This document shows, piece after piece, positions 1-24,106 of a DNA stretch of 24,106 bases. How positions within the stretch are numbered: position 1 is the first letter of the stretch; each line of letters starts with the position of its first letter. Source of the stretch: a virus; the IMG/VR virus record IMGVR_UViG_3300017779_003251, positions 1 through 24,106 of that record. The stretch is one strand, 5' to 3'. The notes below the pieces were generated by a model. That model had not been told where the DNA came from and ran no database searches. It saw only the letters and a program-made list of their open reading frames with translations. Position numbers and translations under genes: made by a program.

Positions 1-3000
1 ACAGGTTCAAATCCTTGATCAGCAAATGATTGTTCAGATCCATCAACACTTGTCGCAGATATAGTTCTTACACGACCACCAACTGATGTGCCTGGTGGTG
101 TCATCGTAGTTACATTTGGTGTAATAGTTTCAAACTGTATGTTTTGTGTTGCTTTTACATTAGTTCCACCACCACGTTTTGAGGATGAGAAGAAACGATC
201 AGGTATAGATCCTCCACTTCTATCTGTGCCATCACTATTCATATCAACTTTAATATGATAGAAGTCTAGATCTTTGTCATTTGGAACAGTCGCAGCTGGA
301 CTATTCATGTCATGAATCTTGTTAATTCTTCGGAGAGAAACACCAGAAAATTCATATTTTCTAATTATATCTCCTGATGAATGACTTGATTGAACAGTGC
401 TATCAATACCTCTAGTTGTAACACCAGTAATAGAACCATTTGCAACGCCAGTGTAAGATAAAATCTCATCTCCGATAATCGCATATCCATAATTTGTTGT
501 TCCAACTCCAACTCCTTCAAATGTGGCAAAGTTAGATGATGAAACGACTGATATATCAGATGTTGCATCATTATCATAATCAACAGTTAATTTAGTCTCA
601 GGAACATCTGATTGAACATCAGACATCTTAACTAAATTATTAAATGCATGTAAACCATGAGCTCTATGATTAATTTTAAAATGTAATCCATCATTTGTTG
701 AATCAACATCAAAGGAACTGATTGTCACACCACTTCCAATATTACCGTCTGCTGTAACACCAAGACCAGTAGTTCCATCAAGTCCAAGAACAGCAGAACC
801 ATTATTAAATCCAACTGTTCCAACACCAGTGACAAAAGAACCTTGAATGTTATCAACAATTATACTGTTTCTTTCAGTGATCACTCCAACAGAAACAAGA
901 GCACCACTTCCATTTCCAAGACCCAATGTTCCAATTCCAAGAGTGTCTCCTTGTGCATAGTTTTTACCACCACCATTTGTGATAGTTACAAATCCAACTT
1001 CCCCATTATTAACAACAACATTAGCAATTGCTCCACTTCCCTCACCAGTTTGAGTCACAAGTGGTATGTCAGTGTACACTAAGAAACCACTGGAGGGAGT
1101 ATAACCAACTCCAGAATTAATGACACTCGTTTCAGTTGCAGCAACACCAGCAACATTAATCAGGGTTCCAGATGCATTTAGATTACCAAATTGACTAATT
1201 TTAACGCCAGGCACTAACCCAGCTGTATCTGGAATAGTGACTCCTAAACCAATAATTGCTTTTTTAGATAAAGAAGTGATTGGATTAGGTGCTAAAGTTG
1301 GAATCTCATCATTACCAGATGATAATTCTGAGTTGAAGAATCTACCCACAGATGGTTCTGTGTTAAACACAGCCCTTCTGATGGTAAACTTCATATCTTC
1401 ATACTGACTAGGATCCCATGTAGTACCATTCTGTGACTTGAATAGAGAACCTAAGTATGGTTGTTGACTAATTAATACCTGTTGCTCGTCTGGTAAATTC
1501 GCAGTTGATATATCAACTTCTCCCATTCTTGATATCCAACAGTTATAATTTTCTGCTGGAGTTACAAGAACCAAAGCATATTCCTGTTCACCAGTTAGAT
1601 ATATTGGTGATTCAAAGGTAAATGTAGTTGGAATTGATGCGTCTTCTGATACATTAACTTCACTTGGATCTTTAACAACAACACTAAATGGTAAGATCTT
1701 AGATGTTGGTAAACCAGTCTCAACAGTTCTAACTTGTAATGTAAGAGGTAATTCCTCATCTTTAGTTTGCATGAATACATCAACAGATGTGATGAATATA
1801 CCAGTGGTTTCATCAACACGGAATGTTTGTGCAAGAGGGTCATAATATTGAACACCTGTAACCGCAACTGATTGTCCAGCAGGGCCTTCAACTTTTCTTG
1901 TAATTCTATCATTTAGAACTCTTTGTTCCTCTGTTGACAATCTTTCAATTTGTGGAGTCTTAATACTTAATACTTGTTCTTGAACTGTATCTAACTCTCC
2001 CAATGACTTAAAGTTTGCTTCAGCAGATCCAGTCACAGTTCCAGAAACTGTAGAGTTTACTGGACTTGTAGTTAAACGAAGAGTTTTTGTACCAGTTTCA
2101 AATCTTGGATTTGCATCTATATTTGGATCTGGTATTTCAAAACATCCTTTTAAAAATCCTAAAGTATCAGTTATAAGTCTGACATTTGTTATTGTTGCCT
2201 CTGCACCACTTGTTTGACCAACAAGTTTCATTCCATTTTTGGAATGTCCAAAAAACTCACCTTGAACTTGTTGTGCAAGACTAAATGTATCAACGTTTAG
2301 AATCGTGGATGATGTAGAATATACAGTTGATATACCAGCTGCATTATCATAAGGGTTTAATGTGATAACTTTTGTTGGTGCATTGTATGGGCCTTCTTTA
2401 TGATTTGGTGTGGCAAGTCTAAATGTCATTGTATTTGTTGGCCCAGGCGCACCACTAAAGGAAGTTAGTGTTGTGCCTTTTACAGTTTCCCCAGTCTGAA
2501 ACACACCACTTGTCATACTAACTTCAAGTAATTTTGGTGTAGTAAATGAGGTTACATCAACATTATCAAAGTAAACATAGAAACGAGTTCTAGGTTTCAT
2601 GCGATGAGTTGTAATTTGAATATTCCTCTTTCTCATAAAAGGAATAATATCACGACTTAGTGTTCTATCTCCAAGAGATTGATTATTAATTGTTGGAGTA
2701 ACTTGGAATTGAATACCTTCTCTTGACTGTTCAGTTGTTGTTATAGTATCTTCAAATTTTTGACTAGTTCTTAAAACAGCATCAGTAATCTTACCAGCAC
2801 CTTTTGGAAGCCATTTTCCATTCAACTTCATTACCATTCCATAGTTGGCAATATGTTTAAGTTGAGATAGATCTGTGCCTGGTGGTAAATCTTTAGGATC
2901 AACTGTTCCTAACTGAGTTTCTGTTGTTTGTTCCCAAGTTTGTGTCACTGACTCAGATGTCCAGTTCGTTTCCCATGCACCCCAGTTAACTTCACTAAAT

Positions 3001-6000
3001 CCAGTCTGTTCATCAATACCTAACGTTGCAACTACGTTATCATATTGAGAAGTATCTACAGTGACATTCGCATCTACTCTCTTCGTATCCATCCAGATAT
3101 CAGAATCTGGTGAAATATCCATATCACCAGAGTAGTAAACAATTAAGAATGGGTTTACGTTTTCAACTCTTGAAGCATAAATTTGCTTCAACATTTCAGT
3201 CTCTGTATAATCTAAAGTTAAAAGTCTTCCTGATTTTTTAATATTTTCTCCATCAACGTCAGTGATATGATTAAGATCTAAAGTTGGATTTGCAGTTGTT
3301 CCAATACCAATAAATGATCTTGAACCAACAACCAAATCAAGACATGTTGTATAATGGCCAGGTCTTAGATACCCATTTTTTGCATCGGTACTAGCGGAGA
3401 AATCTGGATGTGCAATTTGATGAGCATTATGTTTTTTAAAGTTGTCTACAAAAAATCCTGACTTAAATCTATTCAATCCATTTGCATCAGTAATTGTTAA
3501 ATTTGCAGTATCAGTCTCAAGAAGAGATAATCGAGTATAGTATTCAACACTATTAAGTCTTTTTTCAAGTCTTCCAATGTCAGACATTGTAAAACGTTTA
3601 TGATTCGTACGAACCATTTTAATTTGATTTACATTATCAACAAATGGAGGCATTGATATTTTTGCAATCTCTATTGCATCACCAATTGTCTGAGGAAATT
3701 TTGGATCATCAGATGGGACACCTTGAAGATAAACGAAGTTACCAGTCTTATCTAAAAATAATTTATCATTTCTTCCTTGATAATAATTATAAGTTACAAT
3801 TAAAGTTTCATCTGGAACTAAAGGATCGGGAACGTTAGTTCCTGATGAGAAAGATCTTGATGCAAAGTCAAATGGAGATACTGTTGAACTAGTATTGTAT
3901 TCGGCAACTCTTGGCCTAACATCTATTAAATCGTTTACAGATTGTCCATAATTACGATCCACTGGAATTAATTCTTGCGAATCTGTAGGATAACTAGATG
4001 CAGTGAAAAAGTCTCCAGTATCATCAGATGTAACGAAGAAGTTTTTAAATACAATCTTTAATCTATTTGTAGGTGATTCAAATTCTTTCTTTCTCTCTAC
4101 AAAAGAATAATCATAATATGTTGGTTTGTGATTTACATCTAATAGATATTGATTTGTAATGTTACGATCACCAGAAGTGCTAGTAGTTAGCAACGCAGTA
4201 ACACCAGATCTTTCAGCTTTTATAGTTTCACCAATATTGAATGTATTTTGATTTAGTAATACAATTCCAAGTGTTGTAGTGTTTGGTTTCTCCACAACAA
4301 GAGCAATGGCATTACTATCTAATCCTGTTATTTTTTCCCCAACGATTAAATCTGAGTTATTGCCACTTGGGCCTGAATATGCTGTTAAGGTTAATGATGG
4401 TAAATCAGCATCACCAGAGTCATTTGATTCAAACACACCTAATAACTGACAAGCATCAGGAACATTTAATGAAATTTTACGATCTTGAACTCTGGTTCCG
4501 AATACTCTGTTAAATGTTAAACCATCATTTAAACTATTAGTTCCAATACCTGATGATGCTAAAGTTGAACGACTAATATTAATTACATTCGATTCGTTTA
4601 ATTTTTTAAGTTTGTTTTTAACTTTACTCTTTAAAACTGTTGCAAAAAGATTTGCCTTTCCAGAAACTGAACTCAATCCCACGAAAGTTACAGTTTTCTT
4701 ATCCGCAGCGATTTCAACCTGACTCTCTTTTAATGGTTCAATAGATCCCTCATTATAAGATATAAAATATCTTTCCTCATCAAATGGTTGAAAGAATAAA
4801 TCTGCACCAGCATTAGGTGAAGTAAATTGATTATTAGCGACTGTAATATCAGAATATTGTTTTCTAAGTTGAACCGTGGTAGTAGTTACATCTAAACTTT
4901 CAATATTATTATGTCGTACAGGAGTTAAAAGACTATTTTGGTCTAAATCAAATGATGTCTTGCGAAGTAAAAGATCATTTACATCAAGTGACCCTGCAAT
5001 TAATCCATCTAAGACTCCACCATTACAAACATCTGTAACTGATGCAACACCAACAACATTAATTTTTGAACCATCGGTTGATACACCAGTGATTCTATTA
5101 AATCTTGGAAGAGTTTCGCCAGGAACACTATAACTTACGATATTATTTGAAGTTATAATACCTGAGAAATTACTACCAGATGATGTAATAATACCAGCAT
5201 TTCCAGAGGTATTACTTAATCTTAAATTACCAGAAATTAAATTAGTAAGTTTAGTTCCACCATCAAGTAAAACATCTGCTTCAAATGTTGATATACCAAC
5301 AGCGCTCTTTAATGATTTGACATCATTGAATCCAAAAGAATCAACCTTAGTTATAACTCTTCCATCTTGAACACCATTTATTAAAATAGATTCATCTTTT
5401 AAAAATTTACCAGTAACATCAATTAAACTAAAATCTGTAACGTTAGTTGCAGAGGCTCTTACAAATCCTGTTGCACCACTTCTTGCACCTTGTATCTGAT
5501 CTGATGCAGTTAATGAAGTAATCGCAGTTGCAACTTTGACATCTGTGAATGTCTTTACATCAAACAAACGAGTTTCATACTGTGTCGATGAATTTACAAA
5601 ACTTGCAGATTGTGCTTTAAAATCATAAAGTCTTGCAAGACCTATCTCAGATCCACCACCATCTCTTCTTTTGTCAAGTAACGAAACTGTTGCAGTTGTG
5701 CCTATTCCCAAACTTGGAGATCCGAAAACGTTATTTACAAATAAAGGATCACCAGTTGTATAACTGACAGCTTCTTGTTCTACAGTTTTAGTTGTTCTTG
5801 GTTTTGGAACATCAATAAAACTTGTTGATATTTTTTCAATTGAATATCCTTTTATATACGCTTTTCCAGGCGATACTTGCATTACCATTAAATCTTTTGA
5901 TGGTATGTTACCCTGATTTGTTTTTTGTTCTGATGAGTAAATTCCTTTGTTTCCGATAGAATCATTCAAAGATTCTTTTGCAAAAACTTCAAAAGGTTTT

Positions 6001-6932
6001 ACATAGTAATCTCCAGATTCATCATAAGTCCTTTTGGCTAATCTATCATTAAGAAGATTATACTGTGTATCTTTTACAAAAGTTTGTAACTCACCACCTT
6101 GAACACGAGCAATCTCAATGAAGTTTTGATCATTAGTATCATCAAGACCTTTTTTCATCAAACTGATATTGATTTGAAGACGATCAGCGCCAGGAGCAGC
6201 AAAGTTTGTGAATCCTGATGCGTTATCATTTAATGATGGATCTTCATCAGCACTAATAAAGTCCTCTTGAACATCAAATCCAATTCTATAGGATGGAGTG
6301 CCACCATATTGATCTAGTATTAGAGTTTCACTTTGAACCTGAGCAAAAGTTCCACGAATAAAATATACACCCTCTCCTATTGACATTGCAGAACCAGTTG
6401 CAGTCGCACCAAATGCTAAAGTGTTTGCAAATGGTTCACTCGCAGCAATGACACTTGCACCATAAATAATGTCTTTACTTGCAGATAAACTCTCACCATC
6501 ATCAAATTTTTCAGTGGTAAAGTCATCACCAGATTTTTCATACTTTATGTAAAGTGTTAAATTACCTCTATCTGAGTCTTCTTTTGATAATATTTTTTTA
6601 ATCGTTGCAGTTACACCTGATCTTGCACCTGTGATTCTTAAACCAACTAATTGACTTGCATATAATGATACTGGAATACCTAAAAACGCATCTTCAATTT
6701 GAACACATGTAAAGTTATTATCATAACTTAAGTTGCCTGGAATTACTTTAGAACCCTCTTTGAAAAAATGAGTACCAAACTGTTCAATCTGATTCTGTAG
6801 AATCGACTGTAAGGCACTTAGTTCTCGTGCCTGAACTGGAGATCCTGGCTTAAAAAGAACTCTATAAAAGTTTTTATTCTTATCAAAATCGTCAAAATAT
6901 GGCGATACGTTTAGATTAGTTTCCTGTGGCAT
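1..6932 (-). CDS. DUF4815-type giant virion structural protein, 3' end beyond window
   Basis: The reading frame starts at ATG 6932-6930 and stays open to the left edge, giving at least 2310 residues with no stop. The N-terminus (residues 12-66) has the DUF4815 hallmark: a YFDDFD-type opening, VLFKPG, then QARELSALQSILQNQIEQFG. A central segment (about 3370-3620) reads RLEKRLNSVEYYTRLSLLE and then GFFVDNF, possibly a helical or coiled stretch. A later conserved block has YYDPLAQTF (about 1821-1850) followed by NYNCWISRMGE (about 1525-1555), a signature I associate with this family in marine T4-like phages. Nearer the left edge are a GxGY beta-repeat block and an RG/HSSGD module ending in GVSLRRIN. 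It starts 6 bases after the gp8 stop with only an AAAGAA element upstream, so it is probably translated from the gp8 transcript. Family assignment is from remembered motifs; a role as peripheral baseplate or fibre-like protein is inference. No enzyme motif was seen. Confidence 0.85.
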   Translation of the reverse strand, partial: MPQETNLNVSPYFDDFDKNKNFYRVLFKPGSPVQARELSALQSILQNQIEQFGTHFFKEGSKVIPGNLSYDNNFTCVQIEDAFLGIPVSLYASQLVGLRITGARSGVTATIKKILSKEDSDRGNLTLYIKYEKSGDDFTTEKFDDGESLSASKDIIYGASVIAASEPFANTLAFGATATGSAMSIGEGVYFIRGTFAQVQSETLILDQYGGTPSYRIGFDVQEDFISADEDPSLNDNASGFTNFAAPGADRLQINISLMKKGLDDTNDQNFIEIARVQGGELQTFVKDTQYNLLNDRLAKRTYDESGDYYVKPFEVFAKESLNDSIGNKGIYSSEQKTNQGNIPSKDLMVMQVSPGKAYIKGYSIEKISTSFIDVPKPRTTKTVEQEAVSYTTGDPLFVNNVFGSPSLGIGTTATVSLLDKRRDGGGSEIGLARLYDFKAQSASFVNSSTQYETRLFDVKTFTDVKVATAITSLTASDQIQGARSGATGFVRASATNVTDFSLIDVTGKFLKDESILINGVQDGRVITKVDSFGFNDVKSLKSAVGISTFEADVLLDGGTKLTNLISGNLRLSNTSGNAGIITSSGSNFSGIITSNNIVSYSVPGETLPRFNRITGVSTDGSKINVVGVASVTDVCNGGVLDGLIAGSLDVNDLLLRKTSFDLDQNSLLTPVRHNNIESLDVTTTTVQLRKQYSDITVANNQFTSPNAGADLFFQPFDEERYFISYNEGSIEPLKESQVEIAADKKTVTFVGLSSVSGKANLFATVLKSKVKNKLKKLNESNVINISRSTLASSGIGTNSLNDGLTFNRVFGTRVQDRKISLNVPDACQLLGVFESNDSGDADLPSLTLTAYSGPSGNNSDLIVGEKITGLDSNAIALVVEKPNTTTLGIVLLNQNTFNIGETIKAERSGVTALLTTSTSGDRNITNQYLLDVNHKPTYYDYSFVERKKEFESPTNRLKIVFKNFFVTSDDTGDFFTASSYPTDSQELIPVDRNYGQSVNDLIDVRPRVAEYNTSSTVSPFDFASRSFSSGTNVPDPLVPDETLIVTYNYYQGRNDKLFLDKTGNFVYLQGVPSDDPKFPQTIGDAIEIAKISMPPFVDNVNQIKMVRTNHKRFTMSDIGRLEKRLNSVEYYTRLSLLETDTANLTITDANGLNRFKSGFFVDNFKKHNAHQIAHPDFSASTDAKNGYLRPGHYTTCLDLVVGSRSFIGIGTTANPTLDLNHITDVDGENIKKSGRLLTLDYTETEMLKQIYASRVENVNPFLIVYYSGDMDISPDSDIWMDTKRVDANVTVDTSQYDNVVATLGIDEQTGFSEVNWGAWETNWTSESVTQTWEQTTETQLGTVDPKDLPPGTDLSQLKHIANYGMVMKLNGKWLPKGAGKITDAVLRTSQKFEDTITTTEQSREGIQFQVTPTINNQSLGDRTLSRDIIPFMRKRNIQITTHRMKPRTRFYVYFDNVDVTSFTTPKLLEVSMTSGVFQTGETVKGTTLTSFSGAPGPTNTMTFRLATPNHKEGPYNAPTKVITLNPYDNAAGISTVYSTSSTILNVDTFSLAQQVQGEFFGHSKNGMKLVGQTSGAEATITNVRLITDTLGFLKGCFEIPDPNIDANPRFETGTKTLRLTTSPVNSTVSGTVTGSAEANFKSLGELDTVQEQVLSIKTPQIERLSTEEQRVLNDRITRKVEGPAGQSVAVTGVQYYDPLAQTFRVDETTGIFITSVDVFMQTKDEELPLTLQVRTVETGLPTSKILPFSVVVKDPSEVNVSEDASIPTTFTFESPIYLTGEQEYALVLVTPAENYNCWISRMGEVDISTANLPDEQQVLISQQPYLGSLFKSQNGTTWDPSQYEDMKFTIRRAVFNTEPSVGRFFNSELSSGNDEIPTLAPNPITSLSKKAIIGLGVTIPDTAGLVPGVKISQFGNLNASGTLINVAGVAATETSVINSGVGYTPSSGFLVYTDIPLVTQTGEGSGAIANVVVNNGEVGFVTITNGGGKNYAQGDTLGIGTLGLGNGSGALVSVGVITERNSIIVDNIQGSFVTGVGTVGFNNGSAVLGLDGTTGLGVTADGNIGSGVTISSFDVDSTNDGLHFKINHRAHGLHAFNNLVKMSDVQSDVPETKLTVDYDNDATSDISVVSSSNFATFEGVGVGTTNYGYAIIGDEILSYTGVANGSITGVTTRGIDSTVQSSHSSGDIIRKYEFSGVSLRRINKIHDMNSPAATVPNDKDLDFYHIKVDMNSDGTDRSGGSIPDRFFSSSKRGGGTNVKATQNIQFETITPNVTTMTPPGTSVGGRVRTISATSVDGSEQSFADQGFEP
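310..480 (-). other. RG/HSSGD structural module in the DUF4815 protein
   Basis: The translation reads GDEILSYTG, then a TRG turn, then SSHSSGDIIRKYEFSGVSLR. Related segments lie in gp7 at 20223-20291 (NEIITYTGIGTTSFTGCIRG) and 11025-11185 (NDEFMKI, VRRGR, NHSAGDTVTKFLG). The pattern is a short acidic/Glu-Ile strand, an Arg-Gly turn and an HSxGD strand. This looks like a reused beta module rather than a catalytic site. Confidence 0.5.
880..1145 (-). repeat. GxGY beta-repeat pair in the DUF4815 protein
   Basis: Two consecutive units can be read: INSGVGYTPSSG, a short strand, a GSGAIANVVV strand, then VTITNGGGKNYAQGD and GSGALVSVGV. The consensus is ItnGGxGY, a run of hydrophobic/Pro residues, GxGxxAxxxV, then GxVxxVxItnGG. 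Equivalent units occur in gp8 (7623-7862) and gp7 (five clusters). The boundaries are approximate because the unit was delimited by eye. Confidence 0.65.
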
Positions 6933-6938
6933 GATTCT

Positions 6939-8498
6939 TTAAAATTCCAGTACGATCTTGATGTCTTCTTTCTGCTGTGAACTGCGAGTAACAGCAGCTC
7001 TGTTATCAACGTAAATGATATCACCGCTATATTTTTCAACCTCTGGGTTAGCAACACCTTTTACAAAACTCATCCCTAAGTTATAAGTCCTACTATTTAT
7101 TGAGGTAGAAAGACCAGGCTGTAGGGAAGTTCCGAAATTGGTATCTATATTTAGATTACTTGTTCCACCAAATATAGTCGTTCCCGCTCCAGTTGCAGGG
7201 TCAGCGTTAAATCTGAATAATTCGTATCCGTATGTAGGTGCAGTTCCGTTTGTTGATATTGCAAGTCTACGATCTTGCCAATATTTGAGAACTCCAGTTG
7301 TAGCGTCATAATTTATGACTCTACCAACAGCTGTTGAACCAATACCAATTTCTTGAGTAACCTCTGCGTCAGATGTAAAGGTTGCGGTTGTTGATCCAGC
7401 ACCAGTTAATTTCAATGCATAAACAGCACTCGCTTTTGAAAGTGTAAGTTTATTATCTGAACCAAATGCTAGAGGATCTCTACAAAGACCTACACGAGCA
7501 AACTGATTTCCCACAATAAAGTCGGGATTTGATGCATCATTTTCTAAACGAGAATATATTAGAACACGATTTGCACCTAATTCTTTATATACATCAGCAC
7601 CATGTCCATCTTGAGGAGGAACAATAACGTTAAATGCTGCATCTGTGGAACCTGATGGGTTTGTTAGTCCAACATCACTTAGTCCAACAGTTCCAAACGT
7701 GTAATTAGAACCACCGTTAGTTATTTCAACTGAATCTATCTTACCAGCAGCGTTTACCACAACAGAACACCTACCACCACTTCCATCACCCTTGATAGGA
7801 ACGTTATTATAAGTTGCAGCAGTTCCATAACCAACACCACGATTCGTGATTGTGACAATCTTCAACTGTCCACTCGTTGAAGCGTTATTTCTAACTGCAG
7901 CAACATCATTGTTAGTTGACCAACTTTGAGGTAGAGGTATGAAACTTGTTGAATCAAATTTAATAATACTATTTGGGTCGATTGTAAATAGATACTTCCA
8001 AATGTATCCGTCTCCAGATGCACCAGCAGATCTTGGTTCTAAATCTGTGAATAATGGTTCGTCAAGAGATGGTCTTCCCGATGTGTTTTCTGGGTTTGTA
8101 CCATTTTGTAGACAAACATAAACACGGAAGTTTTGATTCATTACATAATAATTTGTGTCATACAAATTAGTTGAACTAGTTTGCGGTGACAAGTTAGATC
8201 GAGAGTAATCGTCTCGATACATTTCATATGTTGTACCTGATGACCAAGTTATTTTTCTAACGACTCTTGCAATATCATCTGAATTCAACTTCTTGAGTGC
8301 GATCATTGTATCCCAATAATCTCTCTCCTCACTAAAAGAGTCTTTTGGTGATGGTGGATTTTCACTCCAATCTGACTGAAAATCTGCTGGGTTAGGGAGA
8401 CCAATCCACGCATAATAACTATTCGTAGTTGAAGCTATCCCCGCTACAAAATTCTCAGAGTTTAATATTCGCAGTTGATCAGTTATAATTGCTGACAT
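6939..8498 (-). CDS. 8: baseplate wedge protein gp8
   Basis: A 519-residue homologue of T4 gp8, a component of the baseplate wedge. Residues 162-171 (GDGYIWKYLF) match the T4 GDGYVWEYLF core, and the C-terminus (SGDIIYVDNR at 491-500, ending in IKIVLEF) parallels T4 SGEMIYMENR ... INILFTF. The N-terminal half keeps the expected pattern, including YRDDYSR and NFRVYVCLQNG before the GDGY block. T4 gp8 has 334 residues; much of the excess lies at about 213-292, where two GxGY beta-repeat units are inserted, and at about 310-480. The ATG at 8498 is 22 bases downstream of a perfect late promoter in the 30-base gap after gp7. There is no clear Shine-Dalgarno sequence, only A-rich leader. The gene order gp6-gp7-gp8 supports the call. 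Confidence 0.92.
   Translation of the reverse strand: MSAIITDQLRILNSENFVAGIASTTNSYYAWIGLPNPADFQSDWSENPPSPKDSFSEERDYWDTMIALKKLNSDDIARVVRKITWSSGTTYEMYRDDYSRSNLSPQTSSTNLYDTNYYVMNQNFRVYVCLQNGTNPENTSGRPSLDEPLFTDLEPRSAGASGDGYIWKYLFTIDPNSIIKFDSTSFIPLPQSWSTNNDVAAVRNNASTSGQLKIVTITNRGVGYGTAATYNNVPIKGDGSGGRCSVVVNAAGKIDSVEITNGGSNYTFGTVGLSDVGLTNPSGSTDAAFNVIVPPQDGHGADVYKELGANRVLIYSRLENDASNPDFIVGNQFARVGLCRDPLAFGSDNKLTLSKASAVYALKLTGAGSTTATFTSDAEVTQEIGIGSTAVGRVINYDATTGVLKYWQDRRLAISTNGTAPTYGYELFRFNADPATGAGTTIFGGTSNLNIDTNFGTSLQPGLSTSINSRTYNLGMSFVKGVANPEVEKYSGDIIYVDNRAAVTRSSQQKEDIKIVLEF
7623..7862 (-). repeat. GxGY beta-repeat insertion in gp8
   Basis: Residues about 213-292 read as two units: KIVTITNRGVGYGTAATY, a GDGSGGRCSVVV strand, then KIDSVEITNGGSNYTFG and an AAFNVIVPP strand. 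I see no counterpart in remembered T4 gp8, in which the GDGY core is followed directly by the rest of the protein. The same unit recurs in the genes on either side, gp7 and the DUF4815 protein. Confidence 0.65.
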
Positions 8499-8520
8499 TT
8501 TATCAATGACTTTTTGTTTT

Positions 8521-8528
8521 TATTTATA
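8521..8528 (-). promoter_or_regulatory. T4-type late promoter for gp8
   Basis: Read on the minus strand, the sequence is TATAAATA followed by AAAAC, a perfect match to the T4 late promoter element recognised by the gp55 sigma factor with gp33/gp45. It sits immediately after the gp7 stop codon (8531-8529) in the only gap between gp7 and gp8. With initiation a few bases downstream, the gp8 leader would be under 20 nt. The other perfect copy, before gp25, has the same AAAAC extension. Confidence 0.85.
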
Positions 8529-11500
8529 TTAAGAATAGGACTCTTTTAAATCACTAGTTCTAATGATTACAGGGCCAGTTTTAATTCCTGTGATACCATC
8601 GTTGGTGATCGCTGTAAATGCCTTAGTATCCTTCTTAACGAAGTCGTGTAAACGACCCCATGAGAACTTACCAAATGATCCACTTCCAATACCAATACCT
8701 TCAGTTGAACTAACACTTACAGTTACTCTTCTCAAAGCAGTTGCACCAATACCAAGAGCAGGCCCTTGTATAGTTTTAGCACTATGCACCTTGTATATAT
8801 TATCTAGGAAGGAAGTTGCAATTCCAACTGTTGTAATCCCAATTGGATTATCATATGATGTTAAACCACTCCCTACATTGCTATCAAACACAGTAAAGTA
8901 ATATCCAGATGCAATACCACTTACAGTTACAGCAGTTCCCACTACTGATGTATCCCGAAGAACAGATCCTTTTGGAATAAACAAATCAAATTGTAATGCT
9001 GTTCCAATTCCAGCAACAGTTGATGTTCCGATTCCAACCACTTCACCAAAATCACCTTGATATTTAATACTTCTTAATTCGTCTTGAGTTACCGCTTCTG
9101 GTTCAATCATGACTAATGGTGGACTTGTATGAGTATATCCAAATCCAGCGTATGTGACTGTGATCGCAGATATTGTTCCAGCAGCAGACACGGTTGCATC
9201 CGCAGTTGCATTTCCAGAAGTTGTACCAACCCCAGCAGTAATCGTGCCGATTCCAGCGGTGACGCCGATTGAAACTTTTGGTGCAACGGTGTATCCCGAT
9301 CCACCATTAGATATTACAATACTGGTTATTGATCCACCAGCAGAAACTACAGCTGTTGCAGCTACTCCAGTTTTAGATGTTCGATCAAGAATTAAGACTT
9401 TCTGCTTAACTTCAACAAGATCATCTAATTGATTAAACATTGGAACCGCTGTATCTGTAAATACCTCACTTGAACCAGCAGAAACACTCTTAATGATATA
9501 TGCAGTTGGTCTGATATTAGGTTCTAATTCAACTCTATCTTTACCAATTCCTATGTTATTAACAAATACATCTTGTGTTTGTTTCTTCCAAGTAACTGGT
9601 CTCTCAAGTGTTCTAACAGTTGTAATTCCAGCCTTAACATATGTGTTTGTAGTTACTGTATCAGATGTTGTAATACCTGTAACTGTTCTTGGTTCTTGTT
9701 GGAATGCGTCATCTAGACCAACATCAGGATATTTATTAATTGTTAATTGATCACCAGTTTTGACTGTTTCTAGAATATCAACTTCAAGAACATCATCATC
9801 AGATGCACGATAGTAATAAATTCTTAATTTATCATCTGCTTTAGGAGCTTCAGAAAATGTGATTTGTGAACCACCACTATACACATAACTCTCATTAGGA
9901 ACTTGAAGAATATCATTTAAGAATATTAAAGTGTTATCTGCAACTTTAATTGGAGATCCTTTCGCAGACCTTATAGTAATTGGTGTTTCAACCGCACCAA
10001 TGGTCTTAGTTATTGGGAATGATCTTCTATCACCATCAAATAGATTTTCAAAACTATTTAATTTTTCTAGTTCACCAAATGTGAATCCAGCAAAACTGTC
10101 GTTGAATGTATCAAGGACAGTTAATTGGAAATCCTTAACTACTTTATTCGCATCTGTTAGAATTCCAGCTTGTCCACCTTCCTCTATTGTAAGAACATCA
10201 TTAATTTTGTAATTATATCCAAAGTTCGTAATTTCAAAACTAATTATACTTGATGCGGTGCCAACACGAACCGATATGGACGCACCGATACCAGTTGAAC
10301 TACCAACTAACCTTAAGTTTTCATAGTTAAGTGGTTTTTCAAACTCAAGAACTGGAGGAGTTGCAGAACTAAATCCAGAACCACCACCATTTGTAATAGT
10401 TACAGAAGTAACTAGTCCAGCAGATACATTTGCCTTACCTATAGTTACAATGCCAGAACTTCCACGAGCCTTAACAAGTATATTTGTTTGTAATCCGACT
10501 CGATAACCAGAGCCACTGTTTCCGATTGATACAGACTCAACAGTTCCAGCAGCAGATACAATCGCAGTTCCACCAGCAGCAACTAAGGGTTGATATCCAA
10601 AGTTTGTTGTTTCACCAACAGAAACAATAATACCACCTCTAGGAACTGATGATATGTTCACATCATAATTGTTTGTGGCACCAACACCTGTAAAACTTAC
10701 AGAAGTGATACCAGCAGTCTCAACAATTGTATAATCATCATTTGGATTCTGGAATATTTCATTTAAAAGAATCACACCTGTATTAGTTGCAAATCCAGTT
10801 ACGTTTGAACCACTAGATTTTAGAATAAAGTTAGTTGAGATTCCTGTAAACTGTTCCTCCACAGTATCAAACACAAAGTTATCTGCATAAGTTTCTTGTG
10901 TTCCGCCAGGAACTCCAGTTCTAGTGAATACTCTACCAGCGAACGTAGATGTGGTTGTTAATCCAGCTGGGCCTTTTTCACCTTTCGGTGGATCTGTAAA
11001 GTTAATTGTATCTTCAACAATCTGATAGTTACCTAAGAATTTAGTAACAGTATCACCAGCGCTATGATTTGCGATTGCAGAATTAAGTCTTCCTCTTCTT
11101 ACAAGTATTCTATTTGTAGATCCAATACCAACAGTATCAATCTTCATAAACTCATCATTAACTTTAATCGTATCACCTGAGAAGAATGATGATATACCTG
11201 TTATTGTAATGAAGTCAGTTTCTAACGCTGCATCAAATGATAGTTTGACATTTACAGGAGATTGAATTACTGGACTTTGAATGTTATTATCAAGAGTTAT
11301 TAAAGCTTTAGAGTTAAGATTCTTTGAAGTAAATGAATGAGTTGTTCCAATTCCAACAGATGACACATCAATAACCTTTGGAATAGCTTGTAGTGACTCA
11401 GCCGCCGTTCTAGCGACTTTAAATTTATTTTCTGCAAGTTTAACTGCAAATACTGTAGATGGTAATTTTGTGGTAACACCAATTCCACTAATAGCCGTTG

Positions 11501-14500
11501 CTGCGATACCGATACTCATTGTTGTACCAGCACCAGTTGGTGTATAAGTTATTTCTTCACCAGTCTGGAAGAAGTGATTATTGACCACAAATGTATCATT
11601 TGTAACATCAACTACGGCAGTGTCTGATGAATCAAATGTCTTATGGAATATTGGATCTCCAGCATGTTTTAGAGGGAATGAGAACTTGATGTCATTCTCT
11701 GTTCCAGTATATGAACCTTCAGCAGACTTTAATCTAGAATTTGTAAATGTAACAAAACCAACTCCACCTGTTCCAGTTTCATTAAAGTTTCTTTGGAATA
11801 CTTTAGTTGTTATCGCTGTATTTGCTGGAGGAGTTAAACGAAGTTCAATATCACCACCAGATGCTGTTGAATAACCAACACCAATAACTCCAAGACCAGA
11901 TGTTGAAGTATTGTTTGTAGAGAAATTATCCATGTAACCAAATTCTGTAAAGAAAGGTTCACTACCATCATGAATCGCAGTTACCTGAGTGACAGCATAC
12001 TTGTCATTTGTTGTATCATGTATTTCAATTAATGCATCAAAGGCAGTATATGTGTTGGAATTAATTCCACTTATTCTTGTGGCCTGTGGAGTTCCTGTTG
12101 CTGCAATATTAGTAGTTGTTGATAGTAACTCTGTCAGTGATATGGTTGTACTTCCAATACCTGTTGCAGTTGAACCTATGGATGTTTGATGAACTCTCAT
12201 CGTTACACCAATTCCAGTCTCAGGTGTAAAGTAAACACTTGTGATACCAGATCTTACATCTGCACCAAATGTTCCAAGTCCGACACTTGGAGAGTTAGTA
12301 GCAGATATATTATCATTAATCATCTGTGCATAGTCTAAGAGATACACCTCTTCACTATCATTCAATACAACCAACTCGTTTATTTGAGTTCTTTCCTGAC
12401 CACCTAACTCTTGTGTTTGAACAAGCAATTTAGAAGTTGTAACCGCAGTGGTTCCAAATCCCACAACTTGAACTGGAGATGGATCTGTAGAACCAATACC
12501 AGCTGATGAGGATATGATACTAACACCAACTCCAACGTTTATCTCGGTTCCAATATCTCCCTCGGATGCAATCGTATTTTTAAATGTTTCTATAGCAAAT
12601 AATCTTAAAGCATAATTGTTAAACTTAGATTTAGCTGGAACGAATCTTAAATTGCCTGTTGTTCCTGTTATTGCAAAATCAAAATCACCAAGATCTATAG
12701 ATGTTTCCACACGACCAAACTTCATCATGTAACCAATGGATCTATCATGAATTAGATTAACCTGAATTATTTCTTTTTCACCTGAAAATCTAGTGTCAAA
12801 AAGTAGCACATAGAATTTAACGCCATCAACTTCATCAATGTCAAAAGCAAAAACATCAGAGAATGCAGTCGCACGAGGTAAGTCATTAAACTGAGAACTA
12901 ACACTATCAACTGAAATTGCTCTGTTTGTTCTAGATTCAATGTAATCAGTTAATATTCTATTACCAAAATTAATTTCATCAGATGCGAATAAACCGTTTA
13001 CATCCTTAGAATTTTCTGTGACCAAATCAAAATCATACGACATATGAAGAGATTCATCTTCACTTACTAAATCTGCAACAACCACAGCGACTGCACTTGA
13101 TACACCAACAGATGCATTACTGCGATTCTTGTCATCAGTAGATGCAATTGAGACAACACTTACATCTGCAAAATTTCTAAATCCAACAACATGACCTAAA
13201 CTATTAACAGGATCTTTCCATGTGTCATAATCAATTGTACTGCCTAATGAATATGAGAATGTCTGGTAATAATCATTATCTGCTAATTTCTGTAGTTCCG
13301 TATTTAATTTTCCTGTATCTCTTCGGAATCCACTTCTAAATTCTGAATCAGAGTCAATATTAAACACAGAATCAAATTTAGTTGTTTGTTCAATCAACGC
13401 AATTGATTTGGAAGATGAACCATTAATTGATTCTCCAACATTAAATGTATCATTTGAAAGAACTTTAAGATACTTATTATTCTCATTCCATGCAACAACC
13501 GTTCCCTGTTTATCACCTGTGCTTACAATTTCACCAACACTAAATTGGTTTGTATCAACACCAATATCAAACTGTGCAATATTTTCAAAGGGTATTGCTT
13601 GTCCTGATGATTTTGATGCACTAAATGTGCCTGGCTGAGTAACTGATGAATCTAATTTGTAAGAAACGGTAGCATTTCCTCCGCCTGGGTTTGTGTTAAC
13701 ACCAGTGATTACAAAAGGTTCATAATCGTAGTTTGCTGAGTTAAATCCACTTCCTGTTGATCCAATACCTATGTTTTCAACATATAATTTTTCTCCCAAA
13801 GTAAAAGGATATGTTGATGAAGTATAACCACCTTCGAGTGTTAGAGTTACAACATTAGTGCCACTTGTAAATGATAAGTTTTTAACTTTAATTCCATTAT
13901 TATTATTTGTGGCGACTATTTTTGGATTCGTATCATATAAAGAGTTTGTATTTCTTAAAATTTTAACCTCAGATACAGATGTTCCTTGTAAGTCAGTCTC
14001 AGTTAAAACTTCGTCTTTAGTTAAACCAGTCACACGATCAATTACCACAATATTGGGTGGTTCTAAGTAATTTTTACCGCCAGAGCTAATTCCTATGTTT
14101 TCAATTTTAGATAATCTATCTAATCTCAGTATTTGTGGTAATTGAACAGATGGTTGAATTGTTTTATCTGCTGAGTAATCAAATCCAATGTTTTTAATTG
14201 TATAATTTCTTAATTTGCCTGTTTCGTTACTATTCAATCTAACTACAGCGCCAACTCCAAGAGTAGATCCAATTGATGTCACAACAGGAATATTTTGATA
14301 GTTTCTACCCTTTGATACGATTCTAATTCTATTGATAGATCCTATAGCATGAGTAGACGAAGTATTATATTTTAAAGTTGTTGATTCTTCTTTTGTGTAT
14401 CCGTCTTTTTCTGGTTGAGATGGTAACACAAATGAGAATGTAGTGCTTCCGATACCTGTAATAACATAATCGCCATTGTAAACACTATCTGATATTTTTA

Positions 14501-17500
14501 AACTTGAATGATTAATTACATCAGTATCAACAATAGGATTTCTCTTAAATGGAGCATTAACATTTAAGTTTACAGGTGTTAGTTTGTAAAATAAATCATT
14601 TGGAGCATTTTCTGTTACAGATAGATCAACTCTCGCAGTGGTTGTGACTCCTACTGTTCCAACACCTATAACTTGGAATCCATCATCCTCTGTATTGTTA
14701 AAATATGGATTTGTAAAGTTTGTATCTCTGAATAATTCAAAATCAAACACCTGTGTTCTTTTTCCAGATATAACTTGTGTTAATGATGTGTCAGATACAG
14801 CAAAACCAACTTTGTATCCACGAGTTAATGATAATGGTGGATTGATGAGAGCTATAGTGTGATTAGATCCTGTTGATGTGAGTGAAATGCAATCAGGTAT
14901 TAATTTTTTAGATTTAAACGCAGTTGAAGATAATTTGATTGTATTCTTATCAATTCTTACTACAAAGTATGTAAAGTTATTAAATAATGGACTTGCTGGA
15001 CTAGATGATTTGTATAATATTTTATCACCAGTTTTATATCCATGATTAGGAAGTATAATTTCATCTTTGTTAATATTTACAGCAGACGCACCAAAGTTAA
15101 TTGGATTAACAAATGTTCGACGAGTTGTATCATCAAATTGAATATCAAATGTAGTTGTAATGCCTGGTATTACAGATATTGAAATACGATCATTTGCAAT
15201 TAAATTATGAGACTCTTTACAAACAACAGTCCCAACTACTTTTTCAGCGAATCCAGTTATCTGAGGTTTTGTTGGTGTGAAACTATGTGATTCACCACTT
15301 CCAAAACCATCAAAGAATAAACGATAAGCTGTTGAACCAATACCAGTTATTCCTCCAGTAGATCCGATTCCCAAAGAATTTGTAGATATTCCTAGTAAAT
15401 CTTTACTCTCTTTTATAGCAAATACTGGAGAGTTATTAGTTAATCTAAAGTTAGGAACTGCATTTATGCCGTTAGAAACTAAAAGTGGAGTTCCATCATC
15501 ACTTGAATATATGAGTTTATCTCCAGTTTCAAATCCATGATCTTGTAAAAATATATTTTGAGTTGGTATAAATCTCTCAGTTGAAGCACCCCCAACAACT
15601 TTGTATGAGTAACTAATAGTTGACCCAATACCAACACCTGATGCTGTTCCTATCGCAACACTTTCAGTCGGATTAAAATAGTATGGAACGTTAACTCTAG
15701 TTTGAATATCAGTGTTTATACCTAGATTAAACGTGATATTGCGATTTAAAGATGTAATTAGAGATGTGCTTGTATGTGCAGTTCCTAAGACTCCATCAAA
15801 TTCTCTCTTAACTCTAACTTTATCATTTAAATCATCAACATTAAGAACTAAGAATCTTTCTGTATTAATACCTAGAACATCATTTGGAGCAATTGAATTT
15901 CGAGATAAATCACCAGTCACAGATAAATTTGTAATCATGCCAGTTGGGCCAGTTGTTCCAATACCTGTGTTTAATTTTAAGAATGAAGTATTAAATCCAA
16001 TCTGATGTCTACCATCTAATTTTCTTAGGGAATCTGTTGAAAGTCCAGAGATGGTGACAAGATCGCCGACAACTAAATCATGTGGTTGTGATGAGAGTCC
16101 TGTTACTTGTCCATTTTGATTATTATAGGTAAATACTATATTTTCTATTTTAACTACAGTTGAAGCTATGGATACAATTTCTTTACCCTCAACTTTTGAT
16201 ATTTCACCAGAAAATCCATTTCCTTTATCTAAATTTTTAATTCTAAGAGGATCTTTAACTTGATACCCAGATCCAGAACTCAATAGTTCATATTGATTAA
16301 TTCTACCAGCAGAGGCATAATTAACTTCAATTTCTTGGTCAACTATCTTTCGACTATCATGTATGCCTTCATAATTTGCACCAGATCCTTCAAGTTTATA
16401 TGGATTTGTATTTCTTCTTAGATTTAAAGTGTTTAAATCAATGTCTTGATTATTAGTCTCTGTGAAGTTCCAATCATCAGGTTTTGCAGCATAATTAGCA
16501 CCAATTAGATATGGAAAGACTGGAGAACGGAAGTTTTTAAATGTTCCACTAGTTTCATTTTCATTTGGATTAATTGTTGCAAAGTAAGCAAATGTTCCTT
16601 TTGGGTAATCTGGAGTAACACAATATCTTCCATTATTTTCATCTAAGTCACCATTTCCAAGATATTCATAATCTTCAATAAAAAATCCTAATGGAAATGT
16701 TGATATAGGAGGGCCATTCTCTCTTGTAGTTTTGAGAGAATATCCAGATCTCATGAGTCTTACAATACCACCATCCTTACGATCATATCCATATGGGCCA
16801 TATATTGGATTACCATCATATGCCCAACCAATAATAGGTGAGTGGTTGAGAGAAACTTGTTCTGCGTTGTTTAGAAGATTTAAGTCATTTGATGTATAGT
16901 CAATTGTACCATCACTATTTTTTGATTTTAATATTTTTCTAAGGCCTCTTGGTGCATAGAATGTTGAAAATTTAATTCCCTCATCATTATCTCCTCTTGT
17001 TAAGAATCCATCATCACCATAGAATATATCTTCATATCTTTTAACATTATTAACTGCCCAAGATCTGATCTTTGGTAAAAATACAGCACCAGTGCCAGGA
17101 ATTACTTCTTGAACACCGACACTTGCAGTTGAATATCCAACACCACCATTATCAACAGTAACTTGATCAACTCTTCCATTACTAATTGATGATATTATTT
17201 TCGCACCAACACCATCACCTAAAATTGTTAAATCGGGAGTAGATGTATATTCTGCACCAGAACGAGTTATAATTACAGATTGTATTCTTCCATTTGTAAC
17301 AATCGCTTTATACTCAGATGATGAACCAGAGGAAACACGAACTTGAGGTGGAATACTAAAGTTAAAGGTAGAATCATTTCCATATCCAAGACCAGCGTTC
17401 TCAACGTTGATAGATGTAATTGAACCTCTTACAATTGGATTGACTCTTGCATGATAGTTTTCTGGTTCTGATGTGTTGATTCCTATAGATCCTTTAACAC

Positions 17501-20500
17501 GAACAGTTATTGGTGGGTAATTAAATACATGATCTCCAGAACCAACAGATGTCAGTCCAACAAACTGTTTTGATTGATAATTTGCATTAGACAATGTTGT
17601 TCCAATACCAGCAGATGCCAGTCTGAAACGGCTGTCACTAACTTTTAAAATATAATAGTCTTGATCTGTATCTAATCCACCAATCTTAACTTGGTTATTT
17701 GAATATCTAACAAGTTCTCCATCTTCAAATCCATGATTTGTATATTCAATAAAATCAGAATATGTATTAATACCAGCAGTAGGAATTAACCGCCTCTTAT
17801 TTTCATACCCTTCGCCAGGATTATCGATGATAATTTGACCTAAAACAAATTTCTTTCTTAAACTTTGAAGTCTCTGTGAACCATCAGCAAAACCAGTAAG
17901 ATTGATTAAATTAGATTTTGTTATTGCATCATTCTGATTATTTGCAAGTTTGATAGTTGATTGATTAACTTTTGATACAAAGTAGATTGATTCATCAACT
18001 AATCTTTGATCTGGATTAATTTGAATTAAAGTTGTTGTAATACCAGCACTGGCGATGCCAATTGCACCAGTATTAAATGTTTTATAGATTACAGCTTCTC
18101 CATCACGAAACTTATGAAAAGTTCCGAAACCAATTGTATCGTTTGCGATATTAATTGCATTACCTGTAGATGATGCATCAAAATCTACAAAGTGATCAAT
18201 TTGTTTTAATCTTGATCTTGCAATCGCATTTTTACCATTACCACCACTAATTTCTATAATTGGTGGTGCAACATAGTCAAAACCTGAATCTATAATATCG
18301 ATTCTTTCAAATTGACCTCTAACGTTTGCTGTCGCACTCACACCAGCTCCAGTTAAACTTTCAACACTTACTGTTGGTGGAGTGATGACATCAAATTGAG
18401 AACCACCCTCTAAAACATCTATTGATTCAACACCACCAAAAAATATAACATCACCTGACTTATAGTTTAGTATCTCTGTGCCATTTACAAGCATGCCAGT
18501 GGCGCCTGGCGCTGTCTCACGTCTCGCCCCATCAAATACTGGATTCAATGAAAATCTCTTTAATAATTTTTGATGATCAAGTTTTTTGTTTGATAAATCG
18601 GGAACAGAGATTTTGAATGTTCCATTTCCAGTTGCATCTACAAAATCACCGTTTACTAAGTCAGGCAAAGAGTTTGCAAGACGAATATTGTTAGAATCAA
18701 CACGACTTATATAATAATTTTTACCATCAATGAGTTGACCTAAGAAACCGTTAACTACATTGTATGTAACAACTTCTCCAGAATAGAATCCATGATCTGC
18801 TGCACCCTCTGTAACCTGTATCAACTGTATAAGGTCTCCGCCAGTAGCGCCAGTCCATGTTATAGACCTATCTGGTGCAACTATAGGTTCATTGCCTAAA
18901 CTCGGTAAAGAAGGAGAGGCGACGTACATATGAGGATGTGGAGGTAATGCTAGTGCATTATCGCTACCATGATCATATACATTTTGAACATCAGTTGTAT
19001 ATTTTGTGATATTATCATGAAGAGAACTATTACCTCTCTTTAATCTTCTACGAATAAATGCAAAATTGTTTTCAGCAACGCCAGGCAAGTCACCTACTAT
19101 AAATGTTGAACTACTAATGACACTTAAAACACGACCAACTGCAACTAAATTAGAATTACCATCTAAAACTTCAATAGCATCCTCTTCTAAGAATCCGTGA
19201 TCAGAAAGACTTTCAATTTTAAAACTACTACTTGATTGTCTTAAGACAGTTTTTGGCGTAAATCTTACAGCAGAGTTATAGACCCATGAACCAAAGTTAG
19301 AATCTTCAGAACTTTTATTGATACCAAATGAACCAACTTTAACCTTATCACCTTTATTAAAGTAAAAAGTTGTATCTGGAATTGAAAAATCCTTTAAAAC
19401 ACCAGTGATTAATACTTCGATCTTATTTGTATTATTTGCAAAAGAATATCCATATGCAACATTATTATATCTAACATCATCTCCAACACTTAAAACATCA
19501 ATAGATGTGTCTACTCCTACAAATTGATTTGCAGTTTTACTTGTATAAGTAACAACTCCAGCGTTACTTGCTGTCGGTAATGATAAAGATCCACTTGTAG
19601 GAAATCCAACAGTTGTATCAACTGTAATAACAGTTGAACCAAGTGATACTGAATCAGTAACACGAGTTCTGCCTGGAATTATAAAATCACCGTCAATTGA
19701 ATCTTGTGATACACTAATCTGATAATAGTGTTCTCCACCATATAAAAAGTCTTTAACATCTGATATCGCACCAGAAGCACCTCGAATATTACCATCATCC
19801 TCGTCAGCATCTTGAAAAAGTGTTGATCCTTTTAAATTACGAGGATCTCCAGAGACAGGTTTGACAACAAAATCTTGTGCAAAACCATAATCAGCATCAG
19901 ATGGTTTAATTAAAAACTGTGATGGTTTAATAACATTAACTTCTTGACCATATAATACTCGAAATAAAATGCGATATGACTCTTCTGTCCCCTTTGTTCG
20001 ATAAAAATCTTTAACTTGACGAATGAACTTAACTTGATCTAAATCACTACTTAATTTACGATTTTCAAATCCACTAGCATATGTTGTTTTTAATTTACTA
20101 AAGAACTCACGAATGAAAAGATTTGATAAGTTATGAACTTTTGTGCCACCAGTATGAGAAACTCCTACACTGGTATTAAATGATAGTAAATCTGATCGTG
20201 TGGGTTGATCCATATTATCAACGCCACTAAAACCACGAATACATCCTGTAAATGATGTTGTTCCAATTCCTGTATAAGTAATGATTTCATTATCAATTTT
20301 TAGTAATCCATACTTACTTGGATATCCTTTTGTCGAATCTACGAATATTGTATCCGAATATGATTCGGTATCTGTTGATAATCCAGTATATTGTGTAAGT
20401 GCAGCACCAACGTATGTTTGTAATTTAGTATATCTGTCAAGATTCTCAGCAATATTAATTGACCCACCTTGATACTCTTGAGAGATATAGTATTGTTTCA

Positions 20501-23092: not shown

Positions 23093-23440
23093 TTACCTTT
23101 TTATAACACGAATTCGATATTTTTCAGATTCTAAAGCGTTAATAATGTATTTAGCACAAATTCGAGGGTCTTTTTCGCCGCAAGTGAAGAAATCTGCGTT
23201 CATACGACCCAATTCAGGCCAAGTATGACAAGAAACATGACTTTCTGCTAATGCAAAAAGAGATGTGACACCACATGGACTGAATTTATGTGTATATTCA
23301 TTTAATATTGTCATCTTCGACTTCAAAATAGCACGAGTGAAGATGTCCCGAAGGAAATTAGGACTGTTTAAGTCCTCAAAATACCCATCGTAGACATCTA
23401 GTATTAGATGCTCACTCATTTCATCCCAATTCTGGTTCAT
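23093..23440 (-). CDS. speD: S-adenosylmethionine decarboxylase proenzyme
   Basis: A 115-residue prokaryotic-type AdoMet decarboxylase. It self-cleaves and makes decarboxylated AdoMet, the aminopropyl donor for spermidine synthesis. Compared with the Thermotoga maritima enzyme, the processing site is Glu66-Ser67 in LAESHVSCHTWPE, with Ser67 becoming the pyruvoyl group; His72 and Cys87 (in DFFTCGE) match its catalytic His68 and Cys83. All key residues are present, so activity is likely. speD is a known auxiliary metabolic gene of marine T4-like cyanophages. The annotated ATG at 23440 overlaps the upstream gene by 20 bases. A second ATG at 23419 (Met8, MSEHLILD) begins one base after the upstream TGA, has GGGA four bases before it, and fits the family N-terminus better; either start leaves the enzyme intact. 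It lies before the gp25 late promoter and so is probably co-transcribed with the upstream gene. Confidence 0.94.
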   Translation of the reverse strand: MNQNWDEMSEHLILDVYDGYFEDLNSPNFLRDIFTRAILKSKMTILNEYTHKFSPCGVTSLFALAESHVSCHTWPELGRMNADFFTCGEKDPRICAKYIINALESEKYRIRVIKR

Positions 23441-24106
23441 TTAAGTCAATTTTAAAGTCACCACCATAAAAATCAGCGTTCATATCAGTGCCTCCAGCAC
23501 CTACACTCACGTCAAGAGACCTTTCTTTCGCTGTTTTCCAAAAATAATTCTCTTCTGAACCTAATCCATCACGATCATGACCATTCTCCACCTGATAATA
23601 CACGGTTGAAACCTTAAAATCAGGAATCTTAGGTGTCTCAGGAGTGATACTGTTGTCATATATCCTCATTCTGTTGTTAGGATACAGTGCAAACTGACCA
23701 TTATCTAATTCTAACAGGTTATGAGACTTATGTTCCGCTGGTTGTTCACTGGTCGAGTAGTCGATAGCGTCTACATCAGAGTGATAGTTATCTAAAGTAC
23801 AAATATATGTACCAGTCTGATTACCATAGTCTCTTGTATAGACCTCATAGTGCATTGAACCGATGAATTGTTTCTGTACTGCAACGACACCATAGTCCAT
23901 ACAGTTCCAGAACTGTAGATTATGTAGTGTCATATCTGGATCGGGTATCTCAGGAGAGGAGAGAAAAGCGCTTATCGGTAACTTATCAAACATTGCAGCA
24001 TACTCTGGTAGATACGTTTCAAAATAAAACGCACGGCCAGGAATACTCTTTGCAGAAACCCATACTCCTTTCACAAATTCACCATGACCACTCTTATGAT
24101 CGGTCA
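23421..24106 (-). CDS. conserved-looking protein of unknown function, start at right edge
   Basis: The frame is open from the right edge to TGA 23423-23421. A GTG at 24074 would give 217 residues, but the coding frame continues upstream as TDHKSGHGEF with no stop, and the two bases left at the edge (TG) could complete an ATG just outside, giving about 228 residues. The sequence is rich in Tyr, Asp and Asn: GRAFYFETYLPEYAAMFDKL and PISAFLSSPEIPDPDMTLHN near the start, a middle with YPNNRMRIYDNSITP, and an acidic C-terminus. No signal peptide, membrane span or catalytic motif is seen. I have an uncertain memory of similar proteins in cyanophages near baseplate genes, but no function. It overlaps speD by up to 20 bases. 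A role in the virion is only suggested by position. Confidence 0.85.
   Translation of the reverse strand, partial: TDHKSGHGEFVKGVWVSAKSIPGRAFYFETYLPEYAAMFDKLPISAFLSSPEIPDPDMTLHNLQFWNCMDYGVVAVQKQFIGSMHYEVYTRDYGNQTGTYICTLDNYHSDVDAIDYSTSEQPAEHKSHNLLELDNGQFALYPNNRMRIYDNSITPETPKIPDFKVSTVYYQVENGHDRDGLGSEENYFWKTAKERSLDVSVGAGGTDMNADFYGGDFKIDLNEPELG

Follow-up and report, generated by a model that had tools for sequence, protein, structure and literature searches.

The nearest described counterparts of the baseplate locus analysed here are the T4 wedge protein gp8 (PF09215; 1n7z) and domain I of the T4 tail sheath protein gp18 (PF22639; 3foa, 3fo8). Domain I, a six-stranded barrel with a helix that is inserted in domain II, protrudes from the tail, takes no part in sheath–sheath contacts, touches the baseplate and binds the retracted long tail fibres; the gp18 mutations G106S, S175F and A178V inhibit fibre retraction (PMC3004832). 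The published numbering omits the methionine, such that these residues are G107, S176 and A179 of the T4 translation, with G107 being the glycine of PGSNY, the domain I motif. Smaller gp8-like chains of 172–180 residues have been solved from phages phi812 and A511 (9euj, 6hhk). Phage immunoglobulin-like domains provide a further point of comparison, as small β modules carried on many virion genes; both their promiscuity and a proposed role in binding the host surface are quoted in PMC9230969. Finally, the tailspikes Dpo31/Dpo36 (28lx, 28mg, 8ck1) contain a single GxGY pair at residues 446–505 (E 0.0075).

The window, that is the whole stretch of DNA analysed, covers an entire IMG/VR record (24,106 bases), which is a fragment of a T4-like phage. 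Its minus strand carries speD, gp25, gp6, gp7, gp8 and the start of a gene encoding a DUF4815 protein (Table 1). An S-adenosylmethionine decarboxylase gene and a neighbour with the PHROGs label ferredoxin adjoin the baseplate genes. The window gp8 falls within the T4 gp8 wedge family (PF09215, phrog_438) in both sequence and core fold: 272 residues of the predicted structure align with T4 gp8 (Z 19.8), and the core covers the phi812 and A511 chains nearly wholly (Z about 14–15). There are 532 matching records for this protein, 468 of which cover at least 80% of it; the nearest annotated relatives are from Synechococcus and other marine phages, with identity no higher than 62.2% among the matches listed.

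Table 1. Genes, GxGY units and other features of the window (positions in bases of the window; residues in brackets).
Feature	Positions	Strand	Evidence or remarks
gp8, baseplate wedge protein, 519 aa	6939..8498	-	phrog_438 E 2.2e-164; Pfam Phage-Gp8 E 4.6e-11; fold match T4 gp8 1n7z Z 19.8
gp7, baseplate wedge protein, 4023 aa	8529..20600	-	phrog_2885; Pfam Baseplate_wedge 27.1 bits
DUF4815 (VrlC-like) protein, cut by window end, 2310 aa visible	3..6932	-	Pfam DUF4815 E 5.6e-64
gp8 GxGY unit pair (210-298), predicted domain with six strands and short helix	7605..7871	-	models, profiles, predicted fold; residues 213-298 match sheath domain I
gp7 unit cluster A (718-800)	18201..18449	-	unit model and profile tests
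gp7 single unit (914-954)	17739..17861	-	seed model only
gp7 unit cluster B (1054-1182)	17055..17441	-	unit model, profile tests, predicted structure
gp7 single unit (1427-1472)	16185..16322	-	seed model only
gp7 unit cluster (2083-2203)	13992..14354	-	unit models; outside profile-profile tests
gp7 unit cluster uC (3348-3487)	10140..10559	-	unit model and profile tests
gp7 unit cluster uD (3752-3848)	9057..9347	-	unit model and profile tests
DUF4815 protein GxGY units (1937-2016)	885..1124	-	weak as single sequence, clear as orthologue profile
Second module segments, gp7 (3100-3190; 300-390)	11031-11303; 19431-19703		
Second module segment, DUF4815 protein (2110-2200)	333-605		
DNA repeat family D1, gp8 copy	7318-7348		GIGST-like coding
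DNA repeat family D1, gp7 copies	8725-8755; 9007-9037; 11482-11512; 12472-12502; 15316-15346		
gp7 DNA repeat families D3 and D5	15008-15048; 15503-15543; 17699-17739; 18775-18798		HGF...GD-type coding
YHYH domain in gp7	16563-16859		Pfam PF14240, E 2.5e-23
S-adenosylmethionine decarboxylase gene and neighbour labelled ferredoxin	23093-23440; 23421-24074		phrog_3704 (ferredoxin label)

The first-pass annotation placed GxGY units in five clusters of gp7, in gp8 and in the DUF4815 protein, and all of these are located by unit models. In gp8, two units occupy positions 7623–7862 on the minus strand, corresponding to residues 213–292. The iterated model finds 12 units above 8 bits in gp7, which resolve into five multi-unit clusters and two single units once weaker units from the seed model are added; a YHYH domain is also present in gp7, past unit cluster B. 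The interval 880–1145 given earlier for the DUF4815 protein refers to bases of the window and is equivalent to approximately residues 1930–2018. With a model built from 15 gp7 units alone, the gp8 segment reaches 36.1 bits, while the highest score in 2000 residue shuffles is 11.6 bits. With the same model, the best domain of the DUF4815 segment, taken as a single sequence, scores 13.1 bits, the best of 2000 shuffles having 12.7, and its full-sequence score of 6.7 is also attained by 14 of the 2000, making this segment marginal by itself.

Profiles resolve the relationship between the units more clearly. They were built from strict single-gene orthologue sets (gp8, 205 rows; DUF4815 protein, 36; four gp7 clusters, 28–36; gp14, nine), because an iterated DUF4815 search drew in rows from gp7, gp8 and gp14 and was therefore circular. 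All 21 unit pairs, 15 of them between different genes, match in profile–profile comparison with probabilities of 89.2–99.7, whereas units compared with equal-sized control segments reach at most 2.7 in 84 pairs. Shuffling the columns, which retains composition, yields at most 9.6 in six pairs with 60 shuffles each, against real values of 94.9–97.3. Mutual profile match is common to the units of gp7, gp8, gp14 and the DUF4815 protein, and these make up the GxGY family. The GxGY units of gp7, gp8 and the DUF4815 protein can thus be regarded with confidence as a homologous module on the strength of their orthologue profiles, in agreement with the earlier proposal of one module shared by three neighbouring genes. 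Random glycine-rich β sequence, considered as an alternative source of the likeness, is ruled out by the residue shuffles, control segments and column shuffles. Among the controls themselves, four of 66 pairs scored 70–92.5, which indicates that these proteins have further modules in common. A second, different module is common to gp7 and the DUF4815 protein, the control segments concerned matching with probabilities of 92.5 and 70.4. None of the Pfam or NCBIfam models reported by the scans names the GxGY unit, an NCBIfam scan of five proteins returned no family, and no paper on the unit is among those listed by literature searches, though one may exist.

In gp8, the units form a segment that is extra relative to T4, as the first reading of the sequence had also suggested. 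T4 gp8 aligns at two flanks only (T4 182–212 to residues 161–191, and T4 299–334 to 485–519), with the result that 86 T4 residues face 293 in the window protein. The profile comparison with T4 gp8 ends at residue 191, and a middle anchor, by which the unit would account for about 85 extra residues, falls short of significance (probability 1.1). While the core is shared, T4 gp8 does not have the GxGY unit: searching it with the unit models, as a check for the same segment, gave no match. In all 20 aligned gp8 proteins, from phages of seven host groups (cyanobacteria, Pelagibacter, Methylophilales, Sinorhizobium, Stenotrophomonas, Caulobacter and Rhizobium), four residues of the segment do not vary: G221, G237, G263 and Y266. 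These are joined by G239 as invariant in all of a larger set of 122 mostly metagenomic gp8s (the window and 121 contigs, taken from the best 80 matches per search); the tyrosine of the first motif is not invariant. Across the 122 phages, mean consensus frequency is 0.61 in the unit region versus 0.64 in the N-terminal core. This conservation argues firmly for an old origin of the extra domain.

The module also extends well beyond the three genes first recognised, a count that proved too low: gp14, tail-fibre genes and one sheath also carry units. In a panel of 19 phage loci and the window, unit pairs (E below 0.01, scaled to 1000 sequences) were matched in gp7 in 18 of 19 cases, in gp8 in 18 of 20 (S-PM2 and Melnitz-1 being missed), and in gp14 in 8 of 14; for the DUF4815 protein the figure is 5 of the 20 phages in which an ORF bears this label. 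Seven cyanophages have four units each in the neck protein gp14 and S-CAM9 has eight, and the unit model finds none in the short gp14 proteins (212–278 aa) of T4, phiM12, Mendera, Cr30 and P10VF; the gp14 gene of S-ShM2 is cut in its locus, and a search of the whole record gives a unit match within the span of that gene. A tail-fibre gene of S-PM2 and further structural genes are also among the carriers. Four unit segments match 6, 3, 17 and 14 PHROGs families, respectively; those whose function is named are all virion or tail families. Phage S-CREM2, which is absent from all models, has units in gp7, gp8 and the gene at the DUF4815 position; its gp122 (gp7) and gp123 (gp8) were detected in the virion by mass spectrometry, and gp124 is absent from the examined rows of the mass-spectrometry table (PMC10665884). 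The tail sheath of Stenotrophomonas phage Marzo contains a canonical GxGY pair at residues 240–317 (81 bits) and that of S-PM2 a weak match (E 0.03), with no unit found by search in the sheaths of RB11-B, P-SSM2, ACG-2014b and S-CREM2.

Structure prediction suggests a link between the gp8 unit and T4 sheath domain I. The gp8 model has a mean pLDDT of 89.9, with values of 84–94 in the blocks spanning residues 201–300, and six strands with a helix of four residues are predicted for the unit. Residues 213–298 align with T4 gp18 residues 99–188 (3foa, Z 5.7, rmsd 3.0, 75 aligned, 19% identity; 3j2m, Z 5.6), the next fold rows at this segment having Z of about 2; a Z of 5.7 lies within the range that the tool flags as a possible common arrangement. 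In Foldseek, gp18 is absent among the best 50 of 317 matches listed for gp8. A model of gp7 residues 1030–1200, confident only in model residues 62–139 (approximately 1091–1168), gave no gp18 among 43 fold rows; its best rows are weak (Z up to 5.0) and mostly immunoglobulin folds. For the same model, Foldseek found nothing in the PDB at E of 0.001 or lower, and 22 matches at this threshold among predicted viral structures, the named ones being mostly cyanophage structural proteins.

Comparisons by sequence give varying results. Among 69 ORFs from a 22-kb stretch of T4 (82000–104000), gp18 is the sole significant match of two unit models, A2 (E 0.001) and it3 (E 0.00045), with the alignment in domain I; for a gp7-only model it ranks second and is not significant (E 0.38; best ORF E 0.11). 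The whole T4 record gives one unit-model match (E 0.004), reported without a location, and among solved structures a T4-type sheath is third of four for A2, which is not significant alone (E 2.7). A domain I profile of 15 Straboviridae sheaths outscores every one of 40 column shuffles with six of the seven unit sets, and every one of 100 with the mixed set A2; for the remaining set, gp7 cluster A, one of 40 shuffles scores equally well. The probability assigned to the sheath profile is 89.5 for the DUF4815 set and only 3–16 for the other six. The Pfam domain I model (Gp18_dom_I, PF22639) matches T4 gp18 itself and is unreported for gp7, gp8 and the DUF4815 protein at E up to 10, HMMER filters dropping most weak matches.

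Like the gp8 unit, T4 gp18 domain I is an inserted β domain of a virion protein; six strands and a helix are described for domain I and predicted for the gp8 unit. A GxxY motif is present in the first hairpin of domain I in 14 of the 15 Straboviridae sheaths, while the second-hairpin GxxY is found in T4 alone. At approximately residues 147–151, the T4 reference sheath reads GKNY, and the other 14 aligned sheaths differ, including one that is 99% identical. The two systems are further separated by the carrier, which in the window is gp8 and not a tail sheath protein, by the silence of the Pfam model on the window proteins and by the moderate Z. The Marzo sheath, despite its canonical pair, carries it away from the position of T4 domain I and has no Gp18_dom_I match. 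Taken together, the GxGY module is probably related to T4 gp18 domain I. This probable connection with the sheath is the new lead of the analysis.

We propose that the units are copies of one β module, each some 40 residues long and usually paired. The module would have entered many virion genes long ago, in branches of the T4-like phages other than that of T4, and have been passed down in place from then on. The pair in gp8 would add a domain of about 85 residues to a T4-type core. The module may act as an outward docking surface on proteins of the baseplate, the neck and, in some cases, the sheath, with which these would hold fibres or one another. As a whole, this account of an ancient homologous module, inherited in place, related to domain I and serving for docking, seems to us evenly balanced between right and wrong. 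Its functional part extends by analogy from the fibre retention known for T4 gp18 domain I, and both the docking role and the partner of the modules in gp8, gp7, gp14 and the DUF4815 protein are therefore put forward conditionally. The near-equal conservation of the gp8 unit and core is easier to reconcile with a partner conserved within the virion than with a host receptor that varies.

That conservation bears directly on the proposal that the units attach to glycans or other groups on the host surface and add weak adhesion, as suggested for phage immunoglobulin-like domains. The best sequence match to a solved structure is the Dpo31/Dpo36 tailspike, units occur in tail-fibre families and the predicted fold of the gp7 units has a weak likeness to immunoglobulin domains; however, a receptor binder under host pressure would not be expected to be about as conserved as the gp8 core over 122 phages, and the neck protein gp14 would make an improbable adhesin. 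Dpo31/Dpo36 is also a tailspike enzyme, not a wedge protein, and the match is confined to the one pair. In contrast to phage immunoglobulin-like domains, the GxGY module appears older and fixed in position, and Pfam scans report no immunoglobulin-type match in the units. Host adhesion is an unlikely role. Equally doubtful is that the units are structural spacers or stabilisers in the wedge and neck without a ligand of their own. The invariant glycines and tyrosine would suit a folding need and the number of gp14 units ranges from 0 to 8, as that of a spacer may, but domain I of the T4 sheath lies exposed and outside the sheath–sheath contacts, which counts against a spacer if the two are related. 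Docking may also be imagined on a larger scale, with GxGY modules on gp14, sometimes the sheath, and gp8, gp7 and the DUF4815 protein forming a track along the tail onto which fibres fold while the phage is not infecting; T4 domain I would then be a remnant or cousin, in which a Gly-to-Ser change in GxxY blocks retraction. This extended form is speculative, and we think it rather improbable.

Regarding how the units spread, the first-pass annotation suggested duplication or recombination between adjacent genes. Older dispersal among virion genes is upheld by the units of gp14 in 8 of 14 panel phages and of the Marzo sheath, whereas recent duplication, recombination or gene conversion finds no support in unit identities, tree or DNA repeats. 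Were gp7, gp8 and DUF4815 units kept alike within each genome by recent exchange, units of different genes would be more alike within than between genomes. Identities are instead 0.348 within versus 0.350 between genomes for gp7/gp8 (15 genomes, p 0.58), 0.326 versus 0.333 for gp7/gp14 (eight genomes) and 0.362 versus 0.359 for gp8/gp14 (eight genomes), giving no within-genome excess and hence no signal of gene conversion or concerted evolution; the comparison covers these three genes because the DUF4815 units are too short. A tree of 104 unit pairs (59 gp7, 20 gp8, 13 gp14, six DUF4815 and six from elsewhere; 65 columns, with matches that were shorter or weaker left out) requires 18 changes of gene label against a shuffled mean of 41.9 (minimum 36), and 86 changes of genome label against 82.7 in shuffles, 971 of 1000 of which were at or below the observed value. 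For 4 of the 104 pairs, the nearest row from another gene comes from the same genome, where 6.1 would be expected. Units therefore cluster by gene, not by genome, and recent exchange between neighbours is without support. With 7 of 101 inner branches well supported, the tree does not place old single transfers, and rare single events could have occurred. At the DNA level, none of 10 repeat families of window positions 6939–20600 has a copy in the gp8 unit (7605–7871). One of them, D1, is common to gp8 and gp7 outside the GxGY units, and gp7 has two others, D3 and D5 (Table 1). Recent exchange, for which the adjacency of the genes and the differing number of units between phages could be cited, is consequently very improbable. 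Least credible of all is convergence on glycine-rich β hairpins without common descent, since the short, glycine-rich motif and a DUF4815 sequence hardly above its shuffles are outweighed by profile matches in every unit pair, which controls and column shuffles fail to reproduce, and by an order of positions kept along whole unit pairs.

An anciently dispersed module inherited in place hence remains the preferred reading. Though unnamed by the family models reported, the GxGY unit is found again and again in virion genes of marine phages that are abundant. Should the link to sheath domain I hold, the decades of genetic work on T4 fibre retraction would provide a direct hypothesis for large parts of the baseplate and neck of cyanophages that are at present unexplained.
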